Of a stretch of 58,380 nt of DNA, positions 26,340-40,383 are shown in pieces. A program made the position numbers and the translations under genes. Each line of letters begins with the position of its first letter. Position 1 is the stretch's first letter. A model generated the notes under the pieces. It made no database searches, had not been told where the DNA came from, and saw nothing but the letters and a program-made list of their open reading frames with translations. The DNA lies in the NCBI GenBank assembly GCA_021776465.1, contig JAJFFU010000048.1:1-58380 (forward strand), read 5' to 3'. This DNA is from Parvularculaceae bacterium. GTDB lineage: Bacteria; Pseudomonadota; Alphaproteobacteria; Caulobacterales; Parvularculaceae.

Positions 26340-28571
26340 ATGGATCACAGATTAAGGCTTGCGGCGTCTACCGCGATAATCATTGTTTTGGCTAGCCAAA
26401 GCGTTCATGCGCAAACGTCGTCAACGGATGATGGCGCACAGGGTCGGCGTGGTGGCGATGAAATTATCGTTACGGCGACGCGCCGCGCACAGTCTATTCT
26501 GGACGTTCCGCAAAGCATTCAGGCGATCGGCGGGGATGCCATTGAGGATCTTGTAATCAACAATGTTGAAGATGTGGTGTCGCTTGTTCCCAATCTTAAT
26601 ATCGAAACCAATCGGAAGTTTGGCGGTCGGTTTAATATTAGAGGCTTTGGTGATCAAGAAGGCGCCTTCACAGCGTTCTCGACGGTTGGTATCTATATCG
26701 ACGATACGCCGTTAACGGACGCGCGCGCGAATTTCGAAGCAGGGCTTTTTGATATTGAACGAATTGAAGTCCTCAGAGGGCCTCAAGGAACGCTTTATGG
26801 TGAAGGATCGCTCGCGGGTACGGTTCGGATCATTACCAACAAGCCGAATGTCGATGAATATTCTGCGAGTCTATTGGGGCGTGTGGAGACGACAAAAGAC
26901 GGCGAGGAAAGTTACCGCGTTGGCGGTGTCGTCAATGTGCCTCTTGTCAAAGGCAAAGCGGCGTTACGCGTGACCGGAAGCTATGATGATGCCGGCGGAT
27001 TTATGGACAGCGGACCATGGCCAACAGGGGCACCTGTAACAGAAGACGTTAATGGCGGATCATCGGTATATGTTCGCGCCGCCCTTCAGTTTAATCCTAC
27101 TGACGCGATTTCAATCCGCCCAAGCTTCACCTATGAATCGGTTGACGCGCAAGCCGGACCGATCGATTCGATCGCTCTCCCGGATCTTGTTGGCTATTCG
27201 AACGGGCCTGATTCGTTTGAGGACGAGCTCTCTGTCTTCGCATTGGAAGCCGATATCGATTTTGGCTGGGCAACGTTGACATCAAGCACTTCATACTATG
27301 ACCGAACATTTGACAGTATTGACGATGATCTACAGGCAAACACGATCATCGACCTGTTCATTGCGCCAAGCGCCTTCACGACGCAGACATTCATGCGAGA
27401 AACACAAACGTTCTCGCAGGAGCTCCGGCTCGTTTCGGCGGCCGATGGCCCGCTCACCTGGCTGATCGGCGGGTTCTATCGCGATAAGGAATTGAAGGAG
27501 GATACGCTCATCTTGAGTGAGACGATTGGTTTGGTCGCCGGCGATGAGCGCACATTCTTTCAGGACAATGCAGCCACGTTCAGGCAAATCGCATTCTTTG
27601 GCGAAGCAAACTATGCGCTCAACGAAAAGCTTACCGTGACAGGCGGCTTGAGGTGGTTCGACGAAGACGCTTCGTCAGCGCTCAATTTTGGCGTATTTGA
27701 TCTCGGCGTGTTTGGGTTTGTATTGAACCCTGAAATTACGCCGGACTTTTCCGAAAATGGCGTTCTCTTTAAGGGGGCGGCGACTTACGAAGTCAGCGAC
27801 GATATCACCCTGTATGCGCTTTACTCCGAAGGATACAGACCAGGTGGCGTTAATGACCGGTTGGCCGATATTGGCGGTATGTTGACCGCAGAACAATTGG
27901 CGGCTTTGGGCACGTATCAACGGGATGAGACGTCGAACTATGAAGTCGGTTTGAAATCTCGGCTATTTGACGGGCGCGTCGCCTTCAACGCGACGGCTTT
28001 TTATATTGATTGGTCGGGCACGCAAGTTTCGAGCGAGCCCATTCCCGGGGCCAATGTTGTCGTCAATGCAGAGGGCGCCGATAGCATAGGCTTCGAGACA
28101 GATTTGATGGTTCATGTGACGGATCGCCTGACATTTGGCGCCGCTGCAGGCTACGCCAAAGCCGAAATCAGCGCTGATACCGCGTCTGCATCTGGCGTTA
28201 TTCCAGAAGGATCAGCGCTGCCACATGCGCCGAAATTTTCGGGGAACGCCTATCTGGAATATCGCCATCCACTCTCCAATGCCATCGATGCGCGATTCCG
28301 CATCGATACCCGCTATACCGGCGCCCGCCAGAACCGTGTTGATATCGTGGGGCTGTCGGGGGCGCCGCTTGACGAATACAATATTGTCAACGCGCTGGTT
28401 GGTATTGAAGGCGAGGATTGGTCGGCTAATCTCTATGTCAACAATCTAACCAACGAATTGGCTGAGCTGAATTCGCTATTGTTCGATGACGGGACCATCG
28501 GAAACGTTGCCGCTGGCTTTGTCAGAAACCGTCCTCGCACATTTGGGCTGCAGGTTCGTAAAGATTTCTAG
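26340..28571 (+). CDS. TonB-dependent outer-membrane receptor of the island
   Basis: The 743-residue protein has a Sec signal (cleavage after VHA, about residue 24), a TonB-box-like EIIVTATRR (about 40-48), a plug domain (IEVLRGPQGTLYGEGSLAGTVRIIT, about 140-165) and a 22-strand-type barrel ending in the terminal Phe required for outer-membrane insertion. It takes up a bulky or scarce substrate using TonB energy. No STN domain is present, so it does not signal. GGGGAAAC precedes the ATG. The operators upstream tie it to the TetR regulon and identify it as the likely substrate gate of the pathway. Confidence 0.9.
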   Translation: MDHRLRLAASTAIIIVLASQSVHAQTSSTDDGAQGRRGGDEIIVTATRRAQSILDVPQSIQAIGGDAIEDLVINNVEDVVSLVPNLNIETNRKFGGRFNIRGFGDQEGAFTAFSTVGIYIDDTPLTDARANFEAGLFDIERIEVLRGPQGTLYGEGSLAGTVRIITNKPNVDEYSASLLGRVETTKDGEESYRVGGVVNVPLVKGKAALRVTGSYDDAGGFMDSGPWPTGAPVTEDVNGGSSVYVRAALQFNPTDAISIRPSFTYESVDAQAGPIDSIALPDLVGYSNGPDSFEDELSVFALEADIDFGWATLTSSTSYYDRTFDSIDDDLQANTIIDLFIAPSAFTTQTFMRETQTFSQELRLVSAADGPLTWLIGGFYRDKELKEDTLILSETIGLVAGDERTFFQDNAATFRQIAFFGEANYALNEKLTVTGGLRWFDEDASSALNFGVFDLGVFGFVLNPEITPDFSENGVLFKGAATYEVSDDITLYALYSEGYRPGGVNDRLADIGGMLTAEQLAALGTYQRDETSNYEVGLKSRLFDGRVAFNATAFYIDWSGTQVSSEPIPGANVVVNAEGADSIGFETDLMVHVTDRLTFGAAAGYAKAEISADTASASGVIPEGSALPHAPKFSGNAYLEYRHPLSNAIDARFRIDTRYTGARQNRVDIVGLSGAPLDEYNIVNALVGIEGEDWSANLYVNNLTNELAELNSLLFDDGTIGNVAAGFVRNRPRTFGLQVRKDF

Positions 28572-28601: not shown

Positions 28602-28620
28602 CCCCGGACTTGATCCGGGG
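28602..28620. terminator. CCCCGGA-N5-TCCGGGG hairpin after the receptor gene
   Basis: A perfect 7-bp stem with a CTTGA loop lies 30 bases after the receptor stop. From memory this palindrome is a widespread dispersed repeat of alphaproteobacteria (REP-like), often at operon ends. No T-run follows directly, so termination is uncertain. Confidence 0.5.
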
Positions 28621-28734
28621 TGGACCCGGTTTTGTGGTTCGAAAACGCGATAAAATATACTTAGAACGGTTTACCTGAATCGGGGATCAGTTAAACCTAG
28701 TCTAAATGTGGGATTTTCAGCGGTAAACGGCGCT

Positions 28735-30876
28735 ATGCAATCGCTCCTTGATGTTCAAACGCCGTGCCTTGTTGTGGATCGAAAACGATTGACTGGAAAT
28801 GTCCATCGTCTGCAAAAGCGGTTTGCGAATACTGAAGTAAAACTTCGCCCACATCTGAAAACAATCAAAAGCATAGAAGCGGCAAGGTTCCTGTTCGATC
28901 CGGGGCAACCGGCGACAGTCTCGACATTGAAAGAGGCGCAAGTCTTTGGCCAGGCGGGATTTACAGATCTGCTTTATGCTGTCGCGATTTCGCCTGCAAA
29001 ACTCGATCAAGTTTCGTTTCTGCGCCGATCCGGCATTGATCTGAAAATCATCACTGACAACATTGCGGCGGCAGAAGCGATCGCCGCTCACTGCCGTGAA
29101 ACAGGTGATGCAATTCCAACACTGATTGAGCTGGATGTTGATAGGCATAGAGGCGGGGTTTCTCCCGACCGTCCGACGGAACTTGTTACAATTGGGGCGG
29201 CGTTGACACATGGCGCGCGGCTTGAGGGTGTTCTTACGCATGCGGGAGAGAGTTATAATCTGTCGGATGAGGGAGCCTTGAAGCAAGCTGCTGAAGGTGA
29301 GCGGTCGGGCGCCTTGAGGGGTGCGAACAGCCTTCGCAGAGCTGGACTCCCGTGCCCAATCGTCAGTATAGGCTCGACTCCCACGGCGTTTTCCCTTGAA
29401 TGTGTTGACGGCGTTAATGAGGTGCGCGCAGGGGTCTATATGTTCTTCGACCTCGTTCAGGCGGGGATCGGTGTTTGCAGCATTGATGACATTGCGCTCA
29501 GCGTACTCGCGACCGTTATTGGCCGCCAAACTGACAAGGGCTGGATCCTTGTCGATTGTGGTTGGACTGCAATATCGAGTGATTGCGGCACGGCGTGTCA
29601 GGCAACTAATCAGCATATGGGATTGGTTTGCGATCTGACCGGCCGGCCTTTCGGCGACTTAGTGTTGTTGCATGTCAATCAAGAGCATGGCGTGATTGCC
29701 GTTCGCCCGGGATCGCAGGGACAATTACCAGATTTACCCGTGGGCTCGCGCGTGCGGATCCTTCCGAACCATGCCTGCGCTACCGCGGCCCAGCACGACA
29801 AATACCAAATTGTGGATGAATCCAGTGACGTTGTTGAGGTATGGCCCAGATTTAATGGGTGGGAAATTGATATGCCTTTGGTGGCGGGCAGCAAAGGTGA
29901 ACTCGCTGTCATTGGCGGTGAGGCTGTTAGAACGGCGGCAAGTCGAGAGCTGGCGTCCAGTGGTGTTCGGGATGCCTTTCGTGCAATAGCGGATGGTAAC
30001 GCAACGCTCTTTCCTGTTGTAACGGCTACTGTTCGGGCGCCCGAAACAGCGCTCGCGATCAAGTCAGGCGTGAACGTCCGCGATGGTATCGTCGGATTAA
30101 AAGTAGGTACATACTGGCCTGACAATGCACATCGATTTGATATTCCTAATCACCATTCAACGACCGTGCTCCTCGACAATGAAACGGGCGCCACGCGCGC
30201 CATCATAAACGCGCGTGACTTAAACGGGCTTCGAACTGCGGCGGCGAATGCAGTCGCGACCAAGGCGCTCGCCCGTCCTGATGCGGAGGTGCTCACAATT
30301 TTGGGCGCTGGCCATCAAGCTGGCTATGAGGTGCGTGCGGTATGTGATGTGCGCCCAATAAAAAAAATCATCCTTTGGGCGCGTGCGCGACAACAGGCTG
30401 AAGCGCTGGCGTCGTCGTTAACAGACTTGACGGTCGATCAAATCGTCATCGTGGATGATGTAAATGACGCAGTCTCGCAGGCAGATATCATCACGACAGT
30501 CACAACAGCACGCAGCGCTCTGTTTACAGGAGCGAACACGCCGCCGGGTGTTCATATTTCGGCAATGGGCGCAGACAGTGAAGGCAAGCAAGAGCTTGAT
30601 TGTGCGCTCGTGAAGACTGCAATGCTGTTTGCCGACGCGCCCGCGCAATCAGCGACTATCGGTGAGTTTCAACATGTGGTGCAATCCGGTATGGTCAGCG
30701 TAGACTCTATTGTGCCGATTGGAAAAGTATTGACAGGGGAACATCCAGGGCGAACGTCTGAGCATGAAATCACGATATTCGACAGTTCCGGTGTGGCCAT
30801 TCAGGATTTGAACGTCGCCCAACGTGTTCTTGATGAATGCTTAAAGAATGGCCGCGCAAAGACAGTGTTATTTTAA
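28735..30876 (+). CDS. Fusion of DSD1/D-threonine-aldolase-type PLP enzyme and ornithine-cyclodeaminase-type imine reductase
   Basis: The 713-residue protein joins two families normally encoded separately. Residues about 1-385 form an alanine-racemase-fold enzyme of the D-serine dehydratase/D-threonine aldolase group: LRPHLKT with the PLP Lys at 42, and the late metal pair His346 and Cys348 in PNHACAT. Residues about 395-713 form an ornithine cyclodeaminase/mu-crystallin domain: GLKVGTYWPDN, then the dinucleotide loop LGAGHQAGYEV (about 523-533). The first half should act on a D-3-hydroxy amino acid, by dehydration or aldol cleavage. The second should reduce an imine or release ammonia with NAD(P). 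A GTG at 28708 is an alternative start. It follows the receptor gene and directly abuts the racemase pseudogene. Confidence 0.82.
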   Translation: MQSLLDVQTPCLVVDRKRLTGNVHRLQKRFANTEVKLRPHLKTIKSIEAARFLFDPGQPATVSTLKEAQVFGQAGFTDLLYAVAISPAKLDQVSFLRRSGIDLKIITDNIAAAEAIAAHCRETGDAIPTLIELDVDRHRGGVSPDRPTELVTIGAALTHGARLEGVLTHAGESYNLSDEGALKQAAEGERSGALRGANSLRRAGLPCPIVSIGSTPTAFSLECVDGVNEVRAGVYMFFDLVQAGIGVCSIDDIALSVLATVIGRQTDKGWILVDCGWTAISSDCGTACQATNQHMGLVCDLTGRPFGDLVLLHVNQEHGVIAVRPGSQGQLPDLPVGSRVRILPNHACATAAQHDKYQIVDESSDVVEVWPRFNGWEIDMPLVAGSKGELAVIGGEAVRTAASRELASSGVRDAFRAIADGNATLFPVVTATVRAPETALAIKSGVNVRDGIVGLKVGTYWPDNAHRFDIPNHHSTTVLLDNETGATRAIINARDLNGLRTAAANAVATKALARPDAEVLTILGAGHQAGYEVRAVCDVRPIKKIILWARARQQAEALASSLTDLTVDQIVIVDDVNDAVSQADIITTVTTARSALFTGANTPPGVHISAMGADSEGKQELDCALVKTAMLFADAPAQSATIGEFQHVVQSGMVSVDSIVPIGKVLTGEHPGRTSEHEITIFDSSGVAIQDLNVAQRVLDECLKNGRAKTVLF

Positions 30877-31660
30877 ATGATAGCAGCGTCGCGCATTCAA
30901 ACAGCTGCCCACGTGCGAGAAAAAATGCTGGGCATATTTGGCGACATGGGTCTGCAGCGACGGCTGATTTTATAAAAAAAACTTGTTGCGCGGACGCCAG
31001 CGATGTCGGACCGAGGCCATATTCTTTTTGTTTTGGTCAATGACCCGACAGTGCCGGATAGAACGGACGCCTTCTCGGAGGGGCGCGACGAGGAAGGACT
31101 GGCGGTCTCCTGCGCGGTGTGGCTCGGCTCAAGGCAGCAGGCGCTGAGAAGTTGGTTATTCCCTGTAACTCCGCACACCATTGGGCGGATATTCTGGAAG
31201 CGTCGGCAGACATCAAACTGATCCACATCGCCGACGCGAGCGTGTTGCAGCTGAAAAAAACAACCCGCAGGACGCTCGTATTGCAATTATGGGAACGCCA
31301 ATAACAATCGCATCTGGTTTTTATCAAGACAAAATAGTCGCAGCTGGTTTCACGCCGGTTTTGCCAGGTGAGACGCTCTTGCGAGGCAAAATTATGCCTG
31401 GAATTCGCTTTGTAAAAGCCGGGTTGGTTTTTGAGGGTGCAAAGGCTCTGAACCATGCAGTTGATGAGTTCTACGCAATTGAAGCGGATGCCATATTGCT
31501 CGCCTGCTCAGAGATCCCGATTGCGTTGCACAGTCGCATTGCACAGGACATGCGTCTGGTTGACACGACACTAGCACTTACAAGCGCGTGCATTGATTCG
31601 TGGATTGAAACTCAAAATAGGGGTGATTTGTGCAGCCCAAATAACAGCACCAATTTTTGA
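30877..31660 (+). pseudogene. Aspartate/glutamate racemase family gene broken by frameshifts
   Basis: Reading across frames restores a racemase: GIFGDMG, then (shift near 30951) SAATADFIKK, (shift in the A-run near 30976-30983) SDRGHILFVLVNDPTVPDRTDA, (shift near 31118) ARLKAAGAEKLVIPCNSAHHW, (shift near 31260) NPQDARIAIMG and on to the end, with the second catalytic Cys in LLACSE. The first Cys is in PCNSAHH. At least four indels occur in about 310 bases while the last 400 bases are intact. It begins immediately after the fusion gene's stop. Either it has decayed recently or the sequence contains errors, since some lesions lie at homopolymers. Confidence 0.8.
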
Positions 31661-35520: not shown

Positions 35521-36918
35521 TCACGATTTACCAAGAAGCGCGGCAAGGTCTTTCACATTGTCCAGCGCCTCTAAGTGCAAAACGACGTTTTCCAATTCCG
35601 AAAGTTGAGCGGAGTCGTAAAGACGCTTGCCGTCTTTGCGGAGCCAGTCGCCCCATTCTGCGGGCGGAAACGGGAAGGTGAAACCATCAGATGCTTTTGA
35701 GAAAGATTGACCGTCCTTCCTGTCGACCTCGATACGGCAATACCGCTGCACGTCGTGCCCGTCTTCAAACTGTATAAAGATCTTATCGATGACAGCTTTC
35801 GCTTTATCGTCGTTGATAGTCTCCGGCGTATAATTGTCTGGAGAAACTTCGTCATAAAGATGCGCGAGGGCGAGCGCGTAAGGCATGGACGAATAGGCTT
35901 CGCTCTCATTCTGAAACGGTCCCTTGAACAGGTTTTCTCCACGATGGCGGCGTTCAGGGTCAATGTAGACGCGAAATTCGGCGACATTTTCAGGTGTAAG
36001 TCCGTGCGTCTTGGTCAACGTGCGCATCAGTTCAATTGCGATTGTGTTTTGCCCCGTGCCATGATGGCGTTTGTATTCAGCGCGTAAAATTTCCCAATCC
36101 TGTCCCAAGCTGTCGATCAGGTCCGGCAGACTTTTTGGAACTTCGCCAAAAAAGCTGTGATACAGGCCGGTGTCGCCTTCTATGATAGAATTTCCGTAAG
36201 GCGCACCGCCTGCCTTTACGATTTCGGCGGCAAACGCGCCGTTTCGATTGATCAGGCTATAGAAGTGATCAACCTGGCCGCCTTCCGGGACGCCGGCGCA
36301 AAAATTCGCTGCATAAGCCATCGCCCGCATGGTTTCTTCTTTATTGAATTTCAGAAGGCATGAAGCTGCAGTGAGGGAACCGAAACCGCCGAATATCATT
36401 GTCGGTCTTCGCGGGAATGGCGCAGTCCATCCGCCGCGCGCCGCCGATAGCTTTCCGAGCACCTCATATGACAGGGCGACAGCAAGTAGTAACTCTTCTC
36501 CTGAAGCGCCGCGCATTTCTGCAAATGCCAATGCGGGAGGGATCGACATTATTCCGGGATGGACGCCGCCGGGAAACAGAACGTCGTCTCGCCAGATTGC
36601 ACGCATTAATGTGGTGTTCGCGAAGACAGCGTCAGCGGTCTGGAGACGGTAGGGCGCTCCAATCACAGAGGCGCCCGAAGGATGCTCGTATGAAGAGACA
36701 GCCCGTTGCATCTGTTCGCCTTCAAGATTGAAAAATCCGGCGAATGCAAGGCCTAAATGGTAAGCAATCTGCGCCTTTGAACGCTCTACAACTGCATCGG
36801 GAAGATCCTTGAACGACGTGTTGACGATAAAATCTGCGAGCCTGCCTTCAGCCCGTTGTGCGGCTTTATCTTTGCCGGGTTTTATTTTGTGTTGCGGGTC
36901 GGCTTGAAAAATGTCCAT
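35521..36918 (-). CDS. MmgE/PrpD family protein, cytoplasmic copy
   Basis: The 465-residue protein belongs to the 2-methylcitrate dehydratase/cis-aconitate decarboxylase/iminodisuccinate epimerase superfamily. It shares the blocks RDDVLFPGGVHPG, ALSYEVLGKL, RRPTMIFGGFG and INRNGAFAAEIVKAGG with its two neighbours. The usual FDD-T segment of the family is replaced by RDDV here and in both paralogues, which marks a divergent branch. No export signal is seen. Reaction unknown: dehydration, decarboxylation or epimerisation are all known in the family. It is the third of three tandem paralogues in one operon. Confidence 0.8.
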   Translation of the reverse strand: MDIFQADPQHKIKPGKDKAAQRAEGRLADFIVNTSFKDLPDAVVERSKAQIAYHLGLAFAGFFNLEGEQMQRAVSSYEHPSGASVIGAPYRLQTADAVFANTTLMRAIWRDDVLFPGGVHPGIMSIPPALAFAEMRGASGEELLLAVALSYEVLGKLSAARGGWTAPFPRRPTMIFGGFGSLTAASCLLKFNKEETMRAMAYAANFCAGVPEGGQVDHFYSLINRNGAFAAEIVKAGGAPYGNSIIEGDTGLYHSFFGEVPKSLPDLIDSLGQDWEILRAEYKRHHGTGQNTIAIELMRTLTKTHGLTPENVAEFRVYIDPERRHRGENLFKGPFQNESEAYSSMPYALALAHLYDEVSPDNYTPETINDDKAKAVIDKIFIQFEDGHDVQRYCRIEVDRKDGQSFSKASDGFTFPFPPAEWGDWLRKDGKRLYDSAQLSELENVVLHLEALDNVKDLAALLGKS

Positions 36919-36997
36919 GGCTGCAATTTCGGTTTCTGGTCAGATTGAGTTGATGTCGTTCAGTTGAGGCGTTCGCCATTGCGTTCTTGCGTTGGAG

Positions 36998-38482
36998 CTA
37001 AGCCGCATACACCATCAAGTCGCGTACGCTCTTTACGTTTTCGAGATCGACTAATCCGTCCGAGAGGCGTTCTAACTTTGAGTCCGGTAGGACACCCTTT
37101 CCATATTCCCCGATCCATGACCGCCATTCACGCGGGCCAAAAGCGATGCCCAGCGTCTCCGACTCCCGGCGAAAAACGCGGCCGTCGGTGGTTTCAAGTT
37201 CAAGTATCGAAAAGCGATCTGATTTATCAGGCATGGCCGCGAAAATGACGTCTATTTTTTTCATCTGCGCGGCGACCTCAGGGTCGTTGTATACCCGCAT
37301 GCTTAGATCATCTTTGTATCGCTGATAGGGTATGTCCCGTTCAAGAAGAGCGAGGGCTGCGCCGTAAGGGAAGGAGGAATACGCTTCGACAGCTTTCTCG
37401 AACGGCCCCTGGTTTGAAACTTCCTGCTTGCGAGCCGGCGCATCACTTACTGAGGTGTAAGTGACGCGAAGCGATTTCACGTCATCTGCAACTAAGTCGT
37501 ACTGTTCGAGCAATTCCAGTAACAGTTGGAAGGCGATGGCATGTTGGCCGGTGCCGGGAAAGATTTTTCTTTCCGTCGTCAATATGTCCCAGACCACTCC
37601 CAGATTATCAATTCTGCTGTAAACCGTCGGCGGCATTTCGCCATAAAACGATCGGTAAAGGCCGAATTCGCCTTCAATAACATTCGGCGAGTAGGGAACG
37701 CCGCCTGCTTCAACAAGATCTATAGCGAACAGACCGTTTCGATTAATAAAACTGTAGTAGTGTTGCATCATGCCTTTTTCGGGTACGCCAATCCCGATAT
37801 TGGCGGCGTAACCCATCGCGGATGCAATTTGCGATGGATCAAGTTTTCGTAATTTCGCTGCGACGGTGGTTGGTCCGAACCCGCCGAAAATAATCGTCGG
37901 ACGCCGCGGCAATGGCGCGCTCCAGCCGTCTCTGGCGCCGCCCAACTTGCCGAGGACCTCATACCCCAGCGCCACCGCCAAAATGAGGTCTTTGCCTGAA
38001 GCGTTGACCGATTCCGCGATGGCAAGTGCTGACGGGATAGTAATAACCCCGGCATGGATTCCCGCAGACCAAATAACGTCGTCGCGTGTGGAGCCGCGCA
38101 TCAAGCTGCAGTTTGCAAAAGCAGCGTCTGACGGGAATAACTTAAAATTTTTGCCGATTACAGTAGCGCCGTCCTGAGGTTTGGCGAGTGATCGCGCAAC
38201 GTGATTGATGTGTTTCGCACGCGCGTCGGTGTGCCCCTCAAACGCGCGCCCAATTAGAAAAACAACTTGCTCCTTGGTTTTACGCACGACTTCCGGAGGA
38301 AGGTCGTCAAAAGTAGTTTCAGCGATAAAGCGCGCAATTCTGTCCGACAAGAACGGCGCGCCGCTTTTATTTGGCGGTACATCATTTTTGGAGCCAGCCG
38401 GCGCCGCATAAAGCACGTCAATTGGCGTAGCCATCCCGGCCGCCATGAGTTGAACCATCGTTCGTCGAGATAAAGACGTCAT
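36998..38482 (-). CDS. MmgE/PrpD family protein with twin-arginine signal
   Basis: The 494-residue paralogue carries an N-terminal signal with SRRTMVQLMAAG and an AYAA-type cleavage region near residue 28, so it is probably exported folded by Tat. The catalytic blocks correspond to those of the downstream copy: RDDVIWSAGIHAG, ALGYEVLGKL, RRPTIIFGGFG and INRNGLFAIDLVEAGG. A periplasmic MmgE/PrpD enzyme is unusual. GGAG precedes the ATG by five bases. It is the middle gene of the tandem trio, 79 bases from the next. Confidence 0.8.
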   Translation of the reverse strand: MTSLSRRTMVQLMAAGMATPIDVLYAAPAGSKNDVPPNKSGAPFLSDRIARFIAETTFDDLPPEVVRKTKEQVVFLIGRAFEGHTDARAKHINHVARSLAKPQDGATVIGKNFKLFPSDAAFANCSLMRGSTRDDVIWSAGIHAGVITIPSALAIAESVNASGKDLILAVALGYEVLGKLGGARDGWSAPLPRRPTIIFGGFGPTTVAAKLRKLDPSQIASAMGYAANIGIGVPEKGMMQHYYSFINRNGLFAIDLVEAGGVPYSPNVIEGEFGLYRSFYGEMPPTVYSRIDNLGVVWDILTTERKIFPGTGQHAIAFQLLLELLEQYDLVADDVKSLRVTYTSVSDAPARKQEVSNQGPFEKAVEAYSSFPYGAALALLERDIPYQRYKDDLSMRVYNDPEVAAQMKKIDVIFAAMPDKSDRFSILELETTDGRVFRRESETLGIAFGPREWRSWIGEYGKGVLPDSKLERLSDGLVDLENVKSVRDLMVYAA

Positions 38483-38535
38483 TCAAACTCCAATAATTCG
38501 TCAATGAGCGTTGGCGGCAAGCGGCTGCAGCATGA

Positions 38536-40077
38536 TTATGCGTTGGCGGCCAACAACGACATCAAGCTGGTTACATTTCGAACGTTTTCCATCCGGCGGA
38601 CGGAAGCGGCAAACTGGTCTAGCCTCTCACCTGGAAGAAGCGTCTCGCCGTCCTTGCGAAGCCATGCTTTGCCGTCGAGAGGCGGAAAATCATGGTGGGC
38701 TCCATCTTTGGTGAATATTGTTCCGTCTTTCTTGTGGACGGTCAGGCGTGCATATCTGTCGTTTGAATGTCGAATGAGGCGAACGGAAATTTTTTCAATT
38801 TCGGCGCGGATTTCCGGAACGTTCGGATGGTCAAAACGAACAGAATTTTGGTTGTCTCCGTCTCGAAGCATGATCGCGGCCTGAAAGACGACTGATGATT
38901 CGGCCTGCGTTCTTGTCGGATATGGCCCGGGCGATATGGACGTGTTGAACGTGCTGCGATCTTCAGGAAGCTCTATCTCCACACGATCAACGGCGCTTGA
39001 CCCCAGTTTGTTCTCCATCAGAATCGACCGCAGCAATTCAATTGGCACGATGTTCATCGCCGTGCCGGGGTAGCGTTTTTGTGTTGCCCGCAAAATTTCC
39101 GGTTCTATTCCGAGATTTTCTATGGCCTTAAGCGGTGGGGGCATGCCGACAACGGTAGGATAGTATCCGTATTGTTCTTCAAGAATTGTCGGCGACGTTT
39201 CACCGCCTGCTTTTGCAATTATCGCCGACATAATTGAGTTACGCGCAATCAAACCATATATATGGGTTGGTTGTTGTTCGTGCCCCGCTTTCAAGCCCAT
39301 CGCGGAATCCGCGGCGTAACCGATCGCGCTGGCGATTTGCTCGCGGCTAAGGCCCATCAGTTTTGCTGCGACTGCGGTCGATGCGAATGGACCAAACGGC
39401 ATGGATGGGCGGCGTAATCGGTCCAACGCAACGTTGACTGTCATCTTGCCCAGGACTTCATACCCGACGATAACCGCCGTCAGAATATCATCTCCTGCGG
39501 CGTTGAATTGTTCGCCAACGGCAAGGGCAACGGGATAGGTCAGTAGCCCCGCATGAGTTGCAGACGGAAATAATACGTCGTCTCGCCCCAATGCGCGTAT
39601 AAACATGCTGTTGGCGAATGCCGCTTCCAGACTGCCGGTTTTTAAAGAATGTCCGATTACCGTTGACGGCCCCGGAGCACGGGTCAGGCTGCCAGCGATC
39701 GCAACGGCTTGTCGGCCGTTTTTGGTTAGCGCACCACTAAGCGCAAGGCCGGCATGATATATGAGTTGCTCTTTCGCTTTCTCGACGACCGCAATACTGA
39801 AATCGTCGAGTTTGGCGTCAAATATATAATCCGCGATATGGGTCGCAAGCGGCTTTTCTTTCATCGGGCTTGTCGCAACGGCAGTGCCCTTGCGGGCCTC
39901 AGACGTTGCGATGGGGGCACCTTCTGATGCCGCCGTTTGGCCATCGGTATTGCCACAACTTTGAAGCAAAACTGGTGTCGTTAGGCCGATACCCCCGATA
40001 ATGGCACTTCGCCGCGTCAGCGTTTTAGGGTTATCGGATACTGAGGTTCTGGCGCGAATCACGTCTGGCTTATTCAT
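38536..40077 (-). CDS. MmgE/PrpD family protein with Tat-like signal and lipobox
   Basis: The 513-residue paralogue starts with TRRSAIIGGIGLTTP followed by LLQSC, a twin-arginine-like motif leading to a lipobox, so it may be a periplasmic lipoprotein. It keeps RDDVLFPSATHAG, VGYEVLGKM, RRPSMPFGPF and IARNSIMSAIIAKAGG, but is the most divergent of the three. The frame is open to 40119; ATG 40077 is a reasonable start. It is the first gene of the minus-strand operon and diverges from the sigma-factor gene. Confidence 0.78.
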   Translation of the reverse strand: MNKPDVIRARTSVSDNPKTLTRRSAIIGGIGLTTPVLLQSCGNTDGQTAASEGAPIATSEARKGTAVATSPMKEKPLATHIADYIFDAKLDDFSIAVVEKAKEQLIYHAGLALSGALTKNGRQAVAIAGSLTRAPGPSTVIGHSLKTGSLEAAFANSMFIRALGRDDVLFPSATHAGLLTYPVALAVGEQFNAAGDDILTAVIVGYEVLGKMTVNVALDRLRRPSMPFGPFASTAVAAKLMGLSREQIASAIGYAADSAMGLKAGHEQQPTHIYGLIARNSIMSAIIAKAGGETSPTILEEQYGYYPTVVGMPPPLKAIENLGIEPEILRATQKRYPGTAMNIVPIELLRSILMENKLGSSAVDRVEIELPEDRSTFNTSISPGPYPTRTQAESSVVFQAAIMLRDGDNQNSVRFDHPNVPEIRAEIEKISVRLIRHSNDRYARLTVHKKDGTIFTKDGAHHDFPPLDGKAWLRKDGETLLPGERLDQFAASVRRMENVRNVTSLMSLLAANA

Positions 40078-40383
40078 GAGACAAGAACCATCCAAACCTA
40101 TTTCGACCGGCGTTCGCAAAGAATTTACGGTGTAGCATCATTACAGAACCGTTGAGTCGCATACGAACTATCGACCTTATTTAAGACATCAGAGCGCTGT
40201 TACACGCCCAATAACAGGGCATGCAAAATTGCATCCGACAGCATAGTTGCTGCAAGATCACACATAACATTGACAATGCCCGGGAAGAGAATCCTCTATT
40301 GCCAATCGCGAAATTCAGGACTTATTTTAAAACTGCATGAATTTAGTCGTGTTTCGCACGATCACTCTAAGTGCCGGCAATTA
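40078..40383. other. Divergent intergenic region, MmgE/PrpD operon versus sigma factor
   Basis: About 300 bases with no gene. A small palindrome, ATGCAA-AA-TTGCAT, lies at 40221-40234 and could be a regulator site. No TGACC-N3-GGTCA copy was found here. Confidence 0.5.

Follow-up and report, generated by a model that had tools for sequence, protein, structure and literature searches.

A natural single-frame fusion of a DSD1-type dehydratase with a BhcD-like reductase in a Parvularculaceae bacterium, with 3-hydroxyaspartate as its putative substrate

The D-threo-3-hydroxyaspartate dehydratase of Delftia sp. HT23 (structure 3WQC) stands alone, with no reductase attached, and yields oxaloacetate and ammonia. 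It acts on both D-threo- and L-erythro-hydroxyaspartate (PMC8071972). The stand-alone reductase BhcD of Paracoccus denitrificans (structure 6RQA) belongs to the beta-hydroxyaspartate cycle, in which it acts alongside BhcA, BhcB and BhcC on glyoxylate (PMC8166194, PMC11166783). The first of these reports describes assay of the cycle's reductase with NADH and iminosuccinate as labile (PMC8166194), and both P. denitrificans BhcD and CRYM are reported to reduce other imines weakly (PMC11876095). Here we analyze a 58,380-nucleotide stretch of a Parvularculaceae bacterium genome (assembly GCA_021776465.1, contig JAJFFU010000048.1, positions 1 to 58,380; hereafter the window), in which a single open reading frame on the plus strand (28735..30876) joins a half resembling the dehydratase to a half resembling the reductase.

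The frame is stop-free from a GTG at 28708 through 30876 (+) and encodes 722 amino acids, or 713 when counted from the ATG at 28735, the preferred start, since relatives begin at that point; residue numbers throughout follow the 722-residue count from GTG 28708. Pfam models of both enzyme families exceed their cut-offs within this frame, with Ala_racemase_N (84.4 bits, residues 23–248) and D-ser_dehydrat (81.2 bits, residues 263–369) in the N half and OCD_Mu_crystall (PF02423; 206 bits against a gathering score of 24, residues 416–712, profile positions 20–311 of 314) in the C half. Comparison with solved enzymes of the respective families gives E = 1e-113 for the N half and 3e-58 for the C half, values that exclude chance resemblance. 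The predicted structure of one single chain has a mean predicted local distance difference test score (pLDDT) of 92.4 and a predicted template modeling score (pTM) of 0.69, with both halves at high confidence and a linker between them (residues 386–396, 29863..29895, +) in which residues 387–395 fall below a pLDDT of 50; at this place unfused relatives end the first gene with a stop codon and begin the second. With a flexible linker and a pTM of 0.69, the model predicts no fixed contact from one half to the other. Both domains share one open frame, and the protein is a natural dehydratase–reductase fusion at the sequence level; the initial annotation, which had reported two families in one polypeptide, is confirmed on this point by the single frame and the Pfam domains of both.

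The N half (residues 10–385, 28735..29862, +) is a fold-III dehydratase of the DSD1 type, dependent on pyridoxal 5'-phosphate (PLP), with the usual C-terminal Gly-Trp end. Its nearest solved relative, both by sequence and by fold, is the Delftia dehydratase, which it resembles over the full length at 51% identity and 384 bits, compared with 190 bits for D-serine dehydratase and 64 bits for the structure of the D-3-hydroxyaspartate aldolase BhcC (6QKB). The NCBIfam BhcC model (NF045642) gives 108.3 bits, below its cut-off of 690, and on these two scores we rejected a BhcC-type aldolase identity; of the DSD1/D-threonine aldolase label first given to this half, the dehydratase part stands and the aldolase part falls. 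Residue Lys51 (28858..28860, +), which we take to be the PLP lysine, and the metal-binding pair His355-Ala-Cys357 (29770..29778, +) are each fixed in at least 90% of 17 dehydratase relatives and are kept in the fusion. These residues are Lys42, His346 and Cys348 when counted from the ATG, as they had been singled out from the DNA alone, and the proposal of a dehydratase-type His-x-Cys metal pair holds: H355 and C357 align with H351 and C353 of 3WQC, the positions at which the H351A and C353A mutant chains of the Delftia enzyme depart from wild type. Overall, 97 of the 106 positions at least 90% fixed among the 17 relatives are retained.

The C half (residues 397–722, 29896..30873, +) belongs to the ornithine cyclodeaminase (OCD)/mu-crystallin family of reductases, and its nearest solved relative by sequence and by fold is the iminosuccinate reductase BhcD, with 36% identity over the full length and 201 bits, against 127 bits for alanine dehydrogenase. 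It keeps 65 of 66 positions that are at least 90% fixed among 18 reductase relatives, including G533, G535, H536 and Q537 of the GAGHQ sequence (residues 533–537, 30304..30318, +), presumably the dinucleotide-binding loop, and Asp623 in GADSEGK (30574..30576, +), which we assume to occupy the position of the family's catalytic aspartate. Arg559 (30382..30384, +) is likewise fixed and kept, and is an arginine in mu-crystallin and a proline in BhcD. The aligned residues read WNP in 6RQA, solved with NAD+, WNR in mu-crystallin, solved with NADPH, and WAR in the fusion, a comparison by which the C half probably uses NADPH.

From these likenesses we infer a bifunctional enzyme, with both activities in one chain, that probably assimilates 3-hydroxyaspartate as aspartate. 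In this reading the N half, dependent on PLP and metal, would dehydrate 3-hydroxyaspartate to iminosuccinate, acting on the D-threo isomer and perhaps on L-erythro too; given that the Delftia enzyme breaks down both of these isomers, the fusion may accept more than one. The C half would reduce iminosuccinate to L-aspartate, probably with NADPH, ahead of its decay to oxaloacetate and ammonia. This chemistry is two known reactions joined, and the fusion would work much as BhcB and BhcD do in the beta-hydroxyaspartate cycle, with a fold-III dehydratase replacing BhcB. Membership in that cycle is not supported so far, as the fusion lies below the BhcC and BhcD cut-offs and no BhcC passes its cut-off in the 83% complete genome, where a search for BhcC with NF045642 matched the fusion alone at 111 bits against 690.

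The domain architecture, which the initial annotation had regarded as undescribed, did not recur in the searched relative, class, order and phylum sets or among the best 80 of 241 loci with a related reductase. The four genome sets overlap, their counts include the window's own genome, and up to two candidates per genome were scored in the three larger sets. Whole-protein searches matched 31 genomes among 100 relatives (E <= 1e-20), 67 among 385 genomes of the class (E <= 1e-60), 14 among 398 of the order (E <= 1e-80) and 17 among 398 of the phylum (E <= 1e-100), with no other fusion in any set; one match (G442) spans residues 14–718 but holds one internal stop. A scan of genome contigs with the fusion as query found no relative, and a scan with an alignment of the reductase subfamily found the 241 relatives; locus counts use the best 80, some of them shortened by contig ends. 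In 56 of these 80 loci a dehydratase gene immediately precedes the reductase, in 6 it immediately follows, and in 2 it lies at a greater distance; the other 16 have none, or none within view. Adjacent genes reading in the same direction occur in 62 loci, and a LysR-type gene occupies the opposite strand in 43. None of the pairs is fused, with at least one stop between the frames in each of the 56 N–C loci and separate frames in the 6 C–N loci. On plasmids, 107 records have a single place that spans 80% or more of the query, and no fusion occurs in the nine examined (L033–L039, L139, L140).

Unfused pairs such as those at L044, L045, L036 and L049 have the same enzymes in the same order and adjacency, and the fusion differs in lacking the separating stop codon. 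In the set used for the N-half tree, the pair is spread across Pseudomonadota, Actinomycetota, Thermodesulfobacteriota, Myxococcota and one Planctomycetota metagenome-assembled genome (MAG), and the annotated records examined here give its members no more specific names than alanine racemase or DSD1 family for one gene and ornithine cyclodeaminase family for the other. In a Desulfovibrionaceae MAG (L046:4438-6534) the genes after the reductase encode a distant DSD1-type enzyme (26% identity) and RidA, which seems to be a similar pair with another fold-III enzyme. To our knowledge no case of such a fusion has been described. Among the papers listed by searches of an open-access library, none describes the fusion or the gene pair, and since most subscription journals lie outside its coverage this is weak evidence of novelty; the matching passages of one paper (PMC9007349) concern other genes.

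Phylogenetic analysis links the fusion to these pairs. In the N-half tree (75 of 77 sequences, two fragments omitted) L044 and L045 form the sister group of the fusion with support 99/89, and in the C-half tree (65 of 89 sequences, 24 mostly close relatives omitted), built under a simpler non-mixture model more prone to false long-branch joins, the fusion groups with L044, L045 and L053 with support 99/95; by identity, too, the C half is closest to L044 (49%). Distances between N genes and between C genes correlate over 61 pairs including the fusion (rho 0.69, with 0 of 1000 permutations as high), a value that includes shared species history. The C-half grouping and the adjacency of the pair in other loci led us to reject a chance joining of unrelated genes. 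The unfused pair is likely the ancestral state, and the simplest history suggested by these comparisons is that of an old, widely conserved gene pair in which the stop codon between the two genes would have been lost in this lineage.

Gene context points to iminosuccinate as the intermediate common to both halves. The reductase also neighbors a fold-II dehydratase in 5 of the 80 loci (L058, L059, L063, L104, L112) and clusters with one on plasmids L033 and L038. Six of these seven genes (all except that of L063) were scored against the NCBIfam model for threo-3-hydroxy-L-aspartate ammonia-lyase, and those of L038, L058, L104 and L112 passed its cut-off and those of L033 and L059 failed. Two unrelated 3-hydroxyaspartate dehydratases beside the same reductase argue for a shared product, iminosuccinate, the substrate of BhcD. 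A Streptomyces plasmid cluster holds genes for a dicarboxylate symporter, RidA, the reductase, the DSD1 enzyme and a 3-hydroxyaspartate ammonia-lyase, and the Escherichia coli IncN plasmid pN3 (L035) holds a partial dicarboxylate symporter gene with RidA, the reductase, a LysR gene and the DSD1 enzyme. Nearest relatives, the second dehydratase neighbor and the plasmid clusters agree in suggesting 3-hydroxyaspartate as the substrate. The genes on pN3, a conjugative plasmid, sit between IS26 and tet(A), and may form a nutrient-use cassette on a resistance plasmid. At three dehydratase-free loci (L056:5434-6192, L098:5205-6011 and L048:5349-6479) the reductase is followed by a 2-oxoglutarate-Fe(II) oxygenase or a Cupin_8/JmjC-like protein, neighbors that might make a beta-hydroxylated acidic residue. 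Elsewhere in the window's genome are an ammonia-lyase relative (330 bits against a cut-off of 452) and, on another contig, two more OCD-family genes.

Several observations weigh against a 3-hydroxyaspartate-to-aspartate enzyme formed from this pair. The fusion is present in one assembly only, and no transporter, regulator or second dehydratase gene of the known clusters is seen beside it. A neighbor census of pairs elsewhere, with 118 of 137 neighbor open reading frames scanned and 13 near-duplicate loci omitted, shows no common transporter: the commonest families are PAS_6/HTH_22 regulators (5/118) and PALP enzymes (3/118), with no transporter among the 25 of 126 families listed. The C half reaches 280 bits with the NCBIfam BhcD model (NF045643), under its cut-off of 500, so its substrate is one that we infer; the unfused relatives at L044 (281.7 bits) and L047 (296.6 bits) also lie below this cut-off. 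A thinned N-half tree of 38 sequences drops the link to L044 to 82/75, and because the N half is most identical to L047 (56%), above L044 (about 51%), it is placed with less certainty than the C half. The N half also departs at nine fixed positions (M6V, E78Q, R101Q, S118N, G146R, D155R, D301N, Y304M and V368I), of which M6 precedes the likely start of the protein; G146R, D301N, Y304M and other changes could alter the substrate. In a leave-one-out comparison the N half differs at 8 of 105 fixed positions, a rate exceeded by two of the 18 rows and within a range of 0 to 27 of about 105 for unfused rows, and the C half changes 1 of 66, a common value in a range of 0 to 7 of about 66; these rates mark the C half as well kept and the N half as lying at the looser end.

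Deviation at fixed positions is more frequent in the N half than in 15 of 17 unfused rows; this, together with a broken racemase gene nearby (described below) and the lack of any match to the fusion in the searched sets, would suit a recent read-through, neutral or decaying, in which one half is inactive or the join brings no benefit. This history is compatible with the bifunctional pathway for the ancestor, and we consider it unlikely for the fusion itself, given that the N-half catalytic and metal residues are kept, that the C half has so few changes and that both halves are predicted with high confidence. Quite unlikely, in our assessment, is a different substrate, in which the N half would dehydrate D-serine or another D-3-hydroxy amino acid to an enamine/imine and the C half would reduce this to L-alanine or the matching L-amino acid, as the N half scores 384 bits for the Delftia dehydratase against 190 for D-serine dehydratase, the C half scores 201 bits for BhcD against 127 for alanine dehydrogenase, and dicarboxylate symporter and 3-hydroxyaspartate ammonia-lyase genes adjoin some relatives of the pair. 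Among the substrates initially listed, 3-hydroxyaspartate is favored by the dehydratase score and gene context, and D-threonine and D-serine are less likely as the main substrate.

The junction bears on whether the join is real. Dehydratase genes of the compared pairs end in Gly-Trp-stop in all rows except L046 and L053, and in the fusion a GAA codon directly follows the Gly-Trp codons and the frame continues. In unfused pairs the directly following reductase starts anywhere from an overlapping position to about 100 bases downstream. The L044 reductase begins with MSEL where the fusion has KGEL, and its ATG aligns with AAA, so the native reductase start codon was lost too; this alignment also led us to reject a ribosome-binding-site relic in the linker. 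The open frame could have come from a substitution within a TAA stop or from a single-base change at the junction. The initial annotation had named an indel joining two separate genes as a ground for refutation, and here the alignments of both halves reach their usual ends in a single frame, with no frame change required within or between them; a one-base junction error is possible because one draft assembly alone (250 contigs, 83% complete) carries the fusion. We regard a draft-assembly artefact, with a stop codon or frame change really separating two genes of an ordinary pair, as highly improbable: the single genome, a junction one base away from a stop codon and the out-of-frame racemase gene 219 bases downstream, which calls for caution on the join, speak for it, and the intact frame of both halves, the replacement of the L044 second-gene ATG by AAA and long intact frames in the window (including 743, 683, 1076 and 1120 amino acids), which argue that the assembly is not full of indels, speak against it.

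Transfer of the imine between the halves without release, also part of the first interpretation, is an attractive idea that is not supported so far, the model predicting no fixed contact. More tentatively, and at somewhat less than an even chance, the fusion may be an imine-relay enzyme that converts 3-hydroxyaspartate into L-aspartate without imine release and exposes a widespread, hitherto undescribed assimilation route that conserves nitrogen (LysR, dehydratase, reductase), in which two unrelated dehydratases, of fold III for the D-threo and fold II for the L-threo isomer, would feed one iminosuccinate reductase outside the glyoxylate-bound beta-hydroxyaspartate cycle.

Immediately upstream of the fused gene, and on its strand, lies a TonB-dependent receptor gene (26340-28571, +), with related frames in L048 and L086 and one in L033 recognized by eye only. 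In the gap before the fused gene is a perfect palindrome, CCCCGGACTTGATCCGGGG (28602-28620), present as a single copy in the window, which may be a dispersed repeat and is terminator-like when read on the minus strand. Downstream, an Asp/Glu racemase remnant (31095-31588, +) lies in two frames with each piece above the Pfam cut-off and the first quarter of the family unmatched; it represents either a broken gene or local errors, and neither piece has a match in loci L033–L123. Farther on are three consecutive PrpD-like genes (35521-40119, -), all weak matches to the NCBIfam PrpD model, and a Pfam scan of two of them (36998-38482 and 38536-40119) also matched MmgE_PrpD_N.

If the bifunctional reading is correct, the fusion would be a natural single-chain dehydratase–imine reductase, a ready system for asking if tethering shields a short-lived imine, and perhaps a catalyst for turning hydroxy amino acids into L-amino acids. 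The conserved unfused pair adds interest because it allows the pathway to be tested in cultured strains. On the same reading the fusion would suggest a job for the unfused DSD1/OCD gene pair across several phyla, predict 3-hydroxyaspartate as a nutrient and warn that OCD-family genes next to DSD1 genes probably do not encode cyclodeaminases.
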